Source of the DNA: Gammaproteobacteria bacterium
Lineage (GTDB): Bacteria > Pseudomonadota > Gammaproteobacteria > Pseudomonadales > Pseudohongiellaceae
Length of the DNA: 44,718 bases
Assembly (NCBI GenBank): GCA_030645995.1
Contig: JAUSMU010000055.1
Span: 1 to 44,718, forward strand
Reading direction: 5' to 3'
Below are positions 33,712 to 35,985 of the stretch, one piece after another (the stretch's first letter is position 1; every line of letters starts with the position of its first letter). The notes beneath the pieces were generated by a model. That model was not told where the DNA came from. It made no database searches and saw nothing but the letters and a program-made list of their open reading frames with translations. A program made the translations under genes and the position numbers.

Positions 33712-35985
33712 CTATGGCTGCGGCGTACTCACCTGCGAGATCAGCTTGCGGTTGGTCACGACTTCGTAGAAACACTCGTCGGAAGAGTGGTCTGGCACTG
33801 GGGCGTCATCCTGCCACAGCCCGACCTGGCCCTCGCGTATGACCAGGTCGTGCATTCTACCTTCGACGTCGGGGAATTTGCCGACATGCAGCACGACCGT
33901 GTCGCCATTGATCTTCACGGACACGCGTTTGAGGATGATTTCCTGCTGCAGTTTGGCAAACCCTGCGTTATCCAGAAGAATCCCGTTCACGTTGTAGCGG
34001 ATCGAGTTCTGGCCTTTCTCACCGCGACCATGCTCGCCGTCCGCCAACGCATATACCTCCACATTGAACAGCCCCGGCTGCACTAGCTTGCGCAGCTTCC
34101 AGGTGCAGGATGACAGCCGGTCGGCCTTGCCGATGGCCGAGGAGATCATGATGGGTTTATCTTCGTCATACAGGAACAGCGGTGGCGTCGCCGCGTAACA
34201 CAGGCCGATGCCAAGCTCCAGTTTGGGCAGGCCCATCTGCTCCGAGTGCCGGTTGTTGGCGTGCACGATATTGAGCATGTCCTTGGCGAGACCACAGGCC
34301 CGCGCCACGGCGAACCACTGCTGGGGCTTCTTCTCGTGTTCGAGGAAACTCAGGATGACCGCGTCGCCCTCGATAAAGACCTTGTTGGCTCCGTAGAGTG
34401 GCAACAGCTTGTTGATGGGGCTGAAGAAACGCAGGCTGAAATAGGAGGCCGGATTCAGCGCCTTGTTCTGCAATTCTTCCGTCACCGTGGTCGAACCGCG
34501 CACATCCGCCTTGATGATGGCGTGATGCACGATACGGTCTTCTTCATCCACCTGCTCATGCGGGGTCAGCAGGGAGTAAAGGGTTCCAGCCTCTTTGGAG
34601 AGCGTCAGCTCGCTGTCCAGTTTGAGAATCCTGACTCTGTTGAAGGCCCGGTGCGCCAGGCGGTAGTACTTCAAATGCAAGCGGAAGCGGGCGATGTCCT
34701 GCAGAATGCCGAGGATGCTCTCCATCTGTCCTGCGCCAGACTCGCGCTTGATCTCCTGACGGATGCCCTCGAACTGTTTGATCTGGGCCGACGTGAAGGT
34801 CTTGCCGTTGAGCGCGCGGCTCTGCAGCTTCTGCGTGTTGATCAGGCCGCCCAGATACTGACAGAGAATCCTGCCTTCGATCTGCTCGGCCAGCGCTGAC
34901 GACCAGATGCGCTGAACATGTGGCGACGCGATGAGCAGCGTCAATACGCGGCGCTTTTTCAACTGTTTGATGATGCTGAGCAGAATTCCGCGACGTTTCT
35001 GCAGGTCCTTCCTGCCCTCCCACCACGCGCCCCAGCCCGACTGCCGTCGCAGTTCCTGCAGGGCTGCAGTCTGCCGCTCGATGTTGAAGAGCAGATCGAG
35101 ATTGGCGGGGTTATCCAGCCAGGAAAATTCCTCTGTCAGGGTGGTCTTCATATCCGTGGCCATGCCCATGAACTTCTGGGTCTGAAACAACCCCCCCAGT
35201 TCGTCATAGAGTTCCGGCGTGCCGGTGCCGGGTGTCTCCAGCAGCCCGGCGCTGTGCAGGTGCGGCAGCTGCTCGCGAAGCAGCCTTTCCACGTCCGCGT
35301 TCAGCGCATTGAAGCCGGCATCCTCACTGTCGCCGCCCCAGAGCCGATAGCGATCAATCAGGAAGGCGCTGGCCCCCGGCTCGCTGGTAAACAGCATCGG
35401 GTTCAGGCGCAGGTCGAGCACGTTGTGGCCCTGCAGCGGCAGATACTGGGTGCGGACATCGCGCAGCTGGCGCGACTCCACACGCTCCAGCTGCGCAAAG
35501 ATCTGGCTGTTGACCGCCAGCAATATGGCGTCGTAGTTTTTCTGCAGCCAGAACAGGCGCTGATTGGTGGTGAGAGCGTTGCCGGATTGATTCTGTTGCC
35601 CGGCGGCACCATGCCCTTTGAGGCTGTCGATGCTCTCGTCCAGCAACCCCCTTGACGTGCTGAGAATAAATTTGAGCGTGGCAAACTCCAACAGGCCGAC
35701 GCTGTCCGGATTCAGATCGGTTTTCACCCGATGCAACAGCGCGGTCATCATGTCGAGATAACTGGTACGCAGCGCGTTGAACGGGGCGCTGAGATCGCTC
35801 GTCTGTGCAGTGGGGGCAGTCGCCTGGCTCAGCAGTGCGGTGGCGAGGCGGCGAACATCCGCCGAAAACTTCGGGCTGATGCGGACATCAATATGGTAAT
35901 TGTTGACGCCCTTGCGCAACCCGGCCAAATCGAGCCGCAAGGCGGGAGCGGGAGACAGGTCTGTTGACTCTAGCGTGCTTTCCAT
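33712..35985 (-). CDS. Large protein with C-terminal divergent class III cyclase-like domain
   Basis: 757 residues from the ATG at 35983-35985 (a TTG at 36042 would add 19). I do not recognise residues 1-480: they look helical, soluble and without signal peptide or membrane span. Residues about 485-640 resemble a class III nucleotide cyclase: IIKADVRGSTTVTEEL with Asp494 as first metal ligand, NKVFIEGDAVILSFL with Lys535 and Asp541, KLELGIGLCYA, and SSAIGKADRLSS where Arg623 matches the transition-state Arg but the usual Asn is Lys. About 115 residues follow. Activity is therefore uncertain; it could be a degenerate sensor domain. No operon partner. Confidence 0.6.
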   Translation of the reverse strand: MESTLESTDLSPAPALRLDLAGLRKGVNNYHIDVRISPKFSADVRRLATALLSQATAPTAQTSDLSAPFNALRTSYLDMMTALLHRVKTDLNPDSVGLLEFATLKFILSTSRGLLDESIDSLKGHGAAGQQNQSGNALTTNQRLFWLQKNYDAILLAVNSQIFAQLERVESRQLRDVRTQYLPLQGHNVLDLRLNPMLFTSEPGASAFLIDRYRLWGGDSEDAGFNALNADVERLLREQLPHLHSAGLLETPGTGTPELYDELGGLFQTQKFMGMATDMKTTLTEEFSWLDNPANLDLLFNIERQTAALQELRRQSGWGAWWEGRKDLQKRRGILLSIIKQLKKRRVLTLLIASPHVQRIWSSALAEQIEGRILCQYLGGLINTQKLQSRALNGKTFTSAQIKQFEGIRQEIKRESGAGQMESILGILQDIARFRLHLKYYRLAHRAFNRVRILKLDSELTLSKEAGTLYSLLTPHEQVDEEDRIVHHAIIKADVRGSTTVTEELQNKALNPASYFSLRFFSPINKLLPLYGANKVFIEGDAVILSFLEHEKKPQQWFAVARACGLAKDMLNIVHANNRHSEQMGLPKLELGIGLCYAATPPLFLYDEDKPIMISSAIGKADRLSSCTWKLRKLVQPGLFNVEVYALADGEHGRGEKGQNSIRYNVNGILLDNAGFAKLQQEIILKRVSVKINGDTVVLHVGKFPDVEGRMHDLVIREGQVGLWQDDAPVPDHSSDECFYEVVTNRKLISQVSTPQP

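Follow-up and report, generated by a model that had tools for sequence, protein, structure and literature searches.

Whether a cyclase-like domain at the end of a large unrecognised protein still works as a nucleotide cyclase, and on which nucleotide, is the question raised by one gene of the window, the 44,718-nucleotide stretch of DNA analysed here. The gene lies on the minus strand (33712..35985) and comprises 757 codons plus a stop, with an ATG start near which the aligned relatives also begin. An initial annotation made from the sequence had left two readings side by side, a new cyclic-nucleotide enzyme architecture or a degenerate sensor.

Fold and domain organisation

The window protein was recognised by no Pfam, NCBIfam, PHROGs or PADLOC model. 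Searching its single sequence against the PDB with phmmer yielded weak matches alone: photoactivated adenylate cyclases at E 0.8-1.1 and a lanthipeptide cyclase at E 0.06, the latter to an unrelated region of the protein. When a profile of the C-terminal domain was run against the PDB, it picked out class III cyclases of known structure (Cya2 best, at E 0.0029), and profile-profile comparison with ordinary cyclases by hhalign gave a match (98.1%, E 1.1e-13) with both metal-binding aspartates inside its confident part. R623 fell on the catalytic arginine when this alignment was forced onward, and was placed identically in the CyaB alignment from the PDB profile search. An AlphaFold model of the C-terminal part, built with 33 aligned relatives as input, had a mean pLDDT of 87.8. 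Its top Foldseek matches in the PDB were class III cyclases (CyaC, E 2.9e-7, probability 1.00; CyaB, target TM-score 0.72). In the predicted fold D494 ends strand 1 and D541 occupies the turn that links strand 2 to strand 3, an arrangement that appears to match the class III enzymes. The initial annotation had proposed profile-profile search and structure prediction as checks; both returned the cyclase fold, and the different fold that it had named as the contrary outcome did not appear. Sequence profile, predicted fold and profile-profile comparison thus all back a cyclase-like domain that follows a large unrecognised N-terminal part, and we regard the class III homology and fold as virtually certain.

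The domain covers residues 484-660 (34006..34536, minus strand), its end being approximate. Fold and strand order are those of the class III adenylate/guanylate cyclases (PF00211; CyaC 1wc4, CyaB 3r5g, Cya2 2w01), and the two metal aspartates and the catalytic arginine in the helix after strand 5 are shared with them. Unlike the PF00211 cyclases, the window protein has no PF00211 match, and its N-terminal domain is unrelated to theirs. The window genome holds a single copy of the gene and five other PF00211 cyclase matches besides. Behind the cyclase-like domain, AlphaFold and the alignment place a strand-rich C-terminal part (residues 661-757; 33715..34005, minus strand) with the family-conserved residues N665, G668, R717 and E741. 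In one distant relative (L085, 7849-8634), whose frame contains no stop, about 30 residues are absent between the second metal aspartate and the fourth strand; the absent region forms the third helix in other relatives.

The N-terminal domain (residues 1-476; 34558..35985, minus strand) is mainly helical in the AlphaFold model (pLDDT 89.1, pTM 0.89) and carries a conserved RGIDN-x-HIDV motif near its start. Foldseek returned no fold match for it in the PDB at E 0.001 or better, and no Pfam or NCBIfam model matched the first 480 residues, in line with the initial annotation, which had recognised nothing there. It had also seen no membrane span; the peak 19-residue hydropathy is 1.10, and judged from its sequence the window protein is soluble. 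From its position alone we infer that the 476-residue helical domain has a regulatory or sensor role. In this family, a helical domain that looks new is coupled to a distant relative of the cyclic AMP- and cyclic GMP-synthesising enzymes.

The predicted metal site and base pocket

Residue conservation was counted over 33 diverse relatives, down to ~26% identity; column identity averages 40%. The first metal ligand, D494 (34504..34506, minus strand), is assigned by profile-profile and family alignment, with K492 two residues earlier. It is kept in 32/33 relatives, the exception being a glycine in the intact-looking protein of genome G008. The second ligand, D541, is present in 33/33 and ends the segment K535-V-F537-I-E539-G-D541 (34363..34383, minus strand), which the family alignment marks as a non-standard base-facing strand. 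R623, also 33/33, aligns with the class III catalytic arginine and closes the segment G619-K-A-D-R623 (34117..34131, minus strand). The metal-ligand aspartate pair and the transition-state arginine noticed earlier were therefore correctly identified. K535, F537, E539, G540, D541, R496, I612, D622 and R623 are all invariant (33/33), and K492 is kept throughout except for one truncated alignment row that lacks the residue. Since K492, D494, R496, K535, F537, E539, D541, I612, D622 and R623 vary little or not at all despite the 40% mean column identity, this pattern is not due to chance.

Two other assignments of the initial annotation had to be moved. A lysine had been put at the purine-binding place, but that place, four residues before the second aspartate, is Phe537; the invariant Lys535 lies two residues further upstream on the same strand. 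The catalytic asparagine had been thought replaced by lysine. Its position, four residues before R623, is Gly619, and the adjoining Lys620 varies among relatives. Glycine occupies the position in 27 of the 33, asparagine in three, alanine in two and serine in one, the canonical asparagine being retained in the distant relatives L079, L083 and L085. The second purine-selecting place, counted from the asparagine site, is I612. Class III enzymes select ATP with Lys/Asp (or Thr) and GTP with Glu plus a small residue (PMC4215837). None of these standard purine-selecting residues was found in the window protein: Phe replaces Lys/Glu at the main base-selecting position and Ile stands at the second (both 33/33), and the asparagine position mostly has Gly across the family. 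The base-facing set K492, K535, F537 and E539 differs from that of adenylate, guanylate and the compared Pycsar cyclases. Such a strictly kept pattern argues for a real pocket and is silent on its substrate. The variation Gly/Asn/Ala/Ser at one catalytic position, combined with an invariant non-standard base pocket, makes the family a test of how much active-site change class III tolerates.

The favoured reading is a soluble signalling enzyme, probably a homodimer, whose C-terminal domain would be a divergent class III nucleotidyl cyclase. D494 and D541 would hold the metal-NTP and R623 would be used in catalysis. The base pocket would be rebuilt from K492, K535, F537, E539 and I612, which makes the standard choice of ATP or GTP improbable; a pyrimidine substrate is possible. 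An active cyclase with a non-standard base choice is the reading that we hold to be moderately probable. For it speak the class III fold, the near-invariant metal ligands and arginine, a low dN/dS (given below), the asparagine kept in L079, L083 and L085, and the alignment of E539 and K492 with D94 and Y50 of the pyrimidine cyclase BcPycC. Against it stand the glycine at the asparagine position in most members, the missing purine-selecting residues, the D494-to-Gly change in G008, the breakage or near-deletion of the gene in several close genomes and the absence of a conserved partner or receptor gene. Between the enzyme and the degenerate sensor first proposed, the near-complete conservation of metal ligands, arginine and pocket residues favours a working site in most members, although conservation of the site cannot prove catalysis.

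The main rival is a pseudo-cyclase that binds a metal-nucleotide and signals to the N-terminal domain or to a partner without cyclising it. Glycine at the asparagine position in 27/33, the loss of the standard purine contacts and the one member without the first metal aspartate agree with this proposal, and the large conserved N-terminal domain could carry the output. Simple nucleotide binding would not obviously need both metal aspartates and the arginine, however, and these have stayed near-invariant over deep divergence; some relatives also retain the asparagine. We consider a pseudo-cyclase rather unlikely, if a serious candidate. Among the closest known proteins are the DUF2652-related cyclase-like proteins, computationally predicted, soluble and divergent class III relatives with changes at the asparagine position (PMC4886424). 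The window protein resembles them in these respects, but they are mostly ~180-390 residues long and carry K/E at the substrate positions, and the window protein has no DUF2652 match.

Comparison with pyrimidine cyclases bears on the proposed base choice. The base readers of the Pycsar cyclases are Y50, D94 and R97 in BcPycC and F100, R142 and Q144 in EaPycC, D94 being a UTP-recognising residue of BcPycC (PMC11224242). When BcPycC (7r65) was aligned, Y50, two residues before the first aspartate, corresponded to K492, and D94, two before the second, to E539. The family has in common with both PycC proteins the class III core and the GST after the first aspartate, and with BcPycC an acidic residue two before the second. 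It differs in having lysine in place of the aromatic Y50/F100, in lacking equivalents of R97 and of R142/Q144, and in being much longer. The pyrimidine-reading residues as such were not found: K492, F537, E539 and A542 reproduce neither Y50/D94/R97 nor F100/R142/Q144.

If the protein served phage defence as a Pycsar-type pyrimidine cyclase, or had recently branched off from one, the shared GST and E539 at the D94 place would be accounted for, and weak matches to PADLOC PycC models do occur in some relatives (best E 4.3e-5 in L079 and 1.3e-4 in L074). The window protein itself matches none of them, and the same PycC model is not specific, because it matches two other cyclase proteins of the window genome, the stronger of these matches having E 6.6e-16. 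No effector gene was recognised among the scanned neighbours of the window gene, no neighbour is conserved, and a search for relatives in plasmids, phages and viral contigs found none. Pycsar membership was rejected on two grounds, the matches of PycC models to other cyclases of the genome and the lack of a recognised effector gene among the scanned neighbours; we hold this origin to be extremely unlikely. Somewhat more credible, but still very unlikely, is a domain recruited with the same metal site for other nucleotide chemistry, such as hydrolysis or nucleotidyl transfer of another type. The distinct invariant set K492, R496, K535, F537, E539 and D622 and the extra conserved C-terminal part would suit it. 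Against it, R623 is retained along with the overall cyclase topology, and nothing positive points to another reaction. An extended form of the active-cyclase reading has the family as a class III cyclase lineage in which K492, K535, F537 and E539 form a separate base code. Its product would be a non-standard cyclic nucleotide (cUMP or cCMP, for instance) with a function other than phage defence, and control would come from the previously unseen helical domain, joined in some lineages by a membrane part that descends from an inactivated signal peptidase II. We put this forward as speculative and unlikely in its entirety.

A signal-peptidase-II-like domain in distant relatives

In the relatives L077-L083, which come from four families (L077 and L078; L079 and L083; L080; L081 and L082), the same two domains are preceded by an N-terminal signal-peptidase-II-like membrane domain. 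The likeness to LspA (PF01252) is confined to these distant relatives, and the window protein lacks the domain. PF01252 was matched in five of the scanned fused proteins, four of them above the cut-off, and in L078 the match spans the whole domain (E 2.9e-16). The fused domains retain the equivalents of Asp21, Lys25, Asp109 and Asp136 of the S. aureus enzyme. Within the catalytic aspartate dyad, as defined in PMC6952399, Asp118 is replaced by Glu, Pro, Gly or Arg in 7/7 fused sequences while the second aspartate is kept; the loss was read from an alignment with true LspA proteins, and by motif for L111. A fused domain with an intact catalytic pair was considered and rejected, the conserved NxxD aspartate being non-catalytic.

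Judged from these replacements the fused domain is apparently inactive, and the genomes that carry it also encode a separate LspA. It may fix the same protein in the membrane; a lipoprotein protease would then have been put to unusual use as membrane anchor or sensor, and a literature search for a fusion of cyclase and signal peptidase II returned nothing relevant. On the tree, fused versus solo architecture requires two changes, with the root uncertain. The membrane part and the remainder of L077 (= L111) lie in different frames, possibly through a frameshift or assembly error.

Five genomes checked in the window's family gave one LspA match each, so that no second signal-peptidase-II-like domain is present in this lineage. 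The sole LspA found in the window genome (L120, G000:C456:3600-4300) has serine at the Asp21 and Lys25 equivalents and retains both catalytic aspartates; the LspA of two other genomes in the genus likewise scores low.

Distribution, selection and gene decay

Within the genus, all 13 other sampled genomes gave a match, several of them to broken genes. Across the class, a strong match (E below 1e-40) was obtained in 13/369 sampled genomes, about 3%, the window's own included. Sampling was carried out within the phylum, and in the rest of it strong matches were confined to one family, which belongs to another proteobacterial class. Weak matches at class and phylum level were, where inspected, ordinary class III cyclases by sequence. 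Together the strong matches form a cyclase-like family, spread over two proteobacterial classes, that is invisible to current annotation models.

The gene is under purifying selection, as estimated from a dN/dS of ~0.08-0.09 against the two closest orthologues (0.013/0.168 and 0.034/0.386), to which the estimate is limited; synonymous sites are saturated in farther pairs. It has also been repeatedly broken or nearly deleted within the window's genus and its sister genus. Remnants of ~100 residues in G004 and ~40 in G026, in-frame stops in G002 and G006, and split frames in other genomes were found; loci L092, L093, L006, L008 and L005 exemplify the remnants, the stops and the change of D494 to Gly. 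Assembly errors could account for the stops and the split frames, an explanation that is hard to extend to the G004 and G026 remnants. Since breakage and remnants occur in such close genomes, the gene is probably dispensable under some conditions.

No neighbour gene is generally shared outside the genus, and the search for a conserved partner or receptor gene gave none. A link to ribonucleotide reductase was rejected: the neighbours concerned are common to two families and extend no wider, and the neighbour of L086 is a glutamate dehydrogenase-type protein, not a reductase subunit. In one family, the fused gene is immediately preceded on the same strand by a gene for a single-domain response regulator (L077, 5652-6035; L078, 5954-6340).
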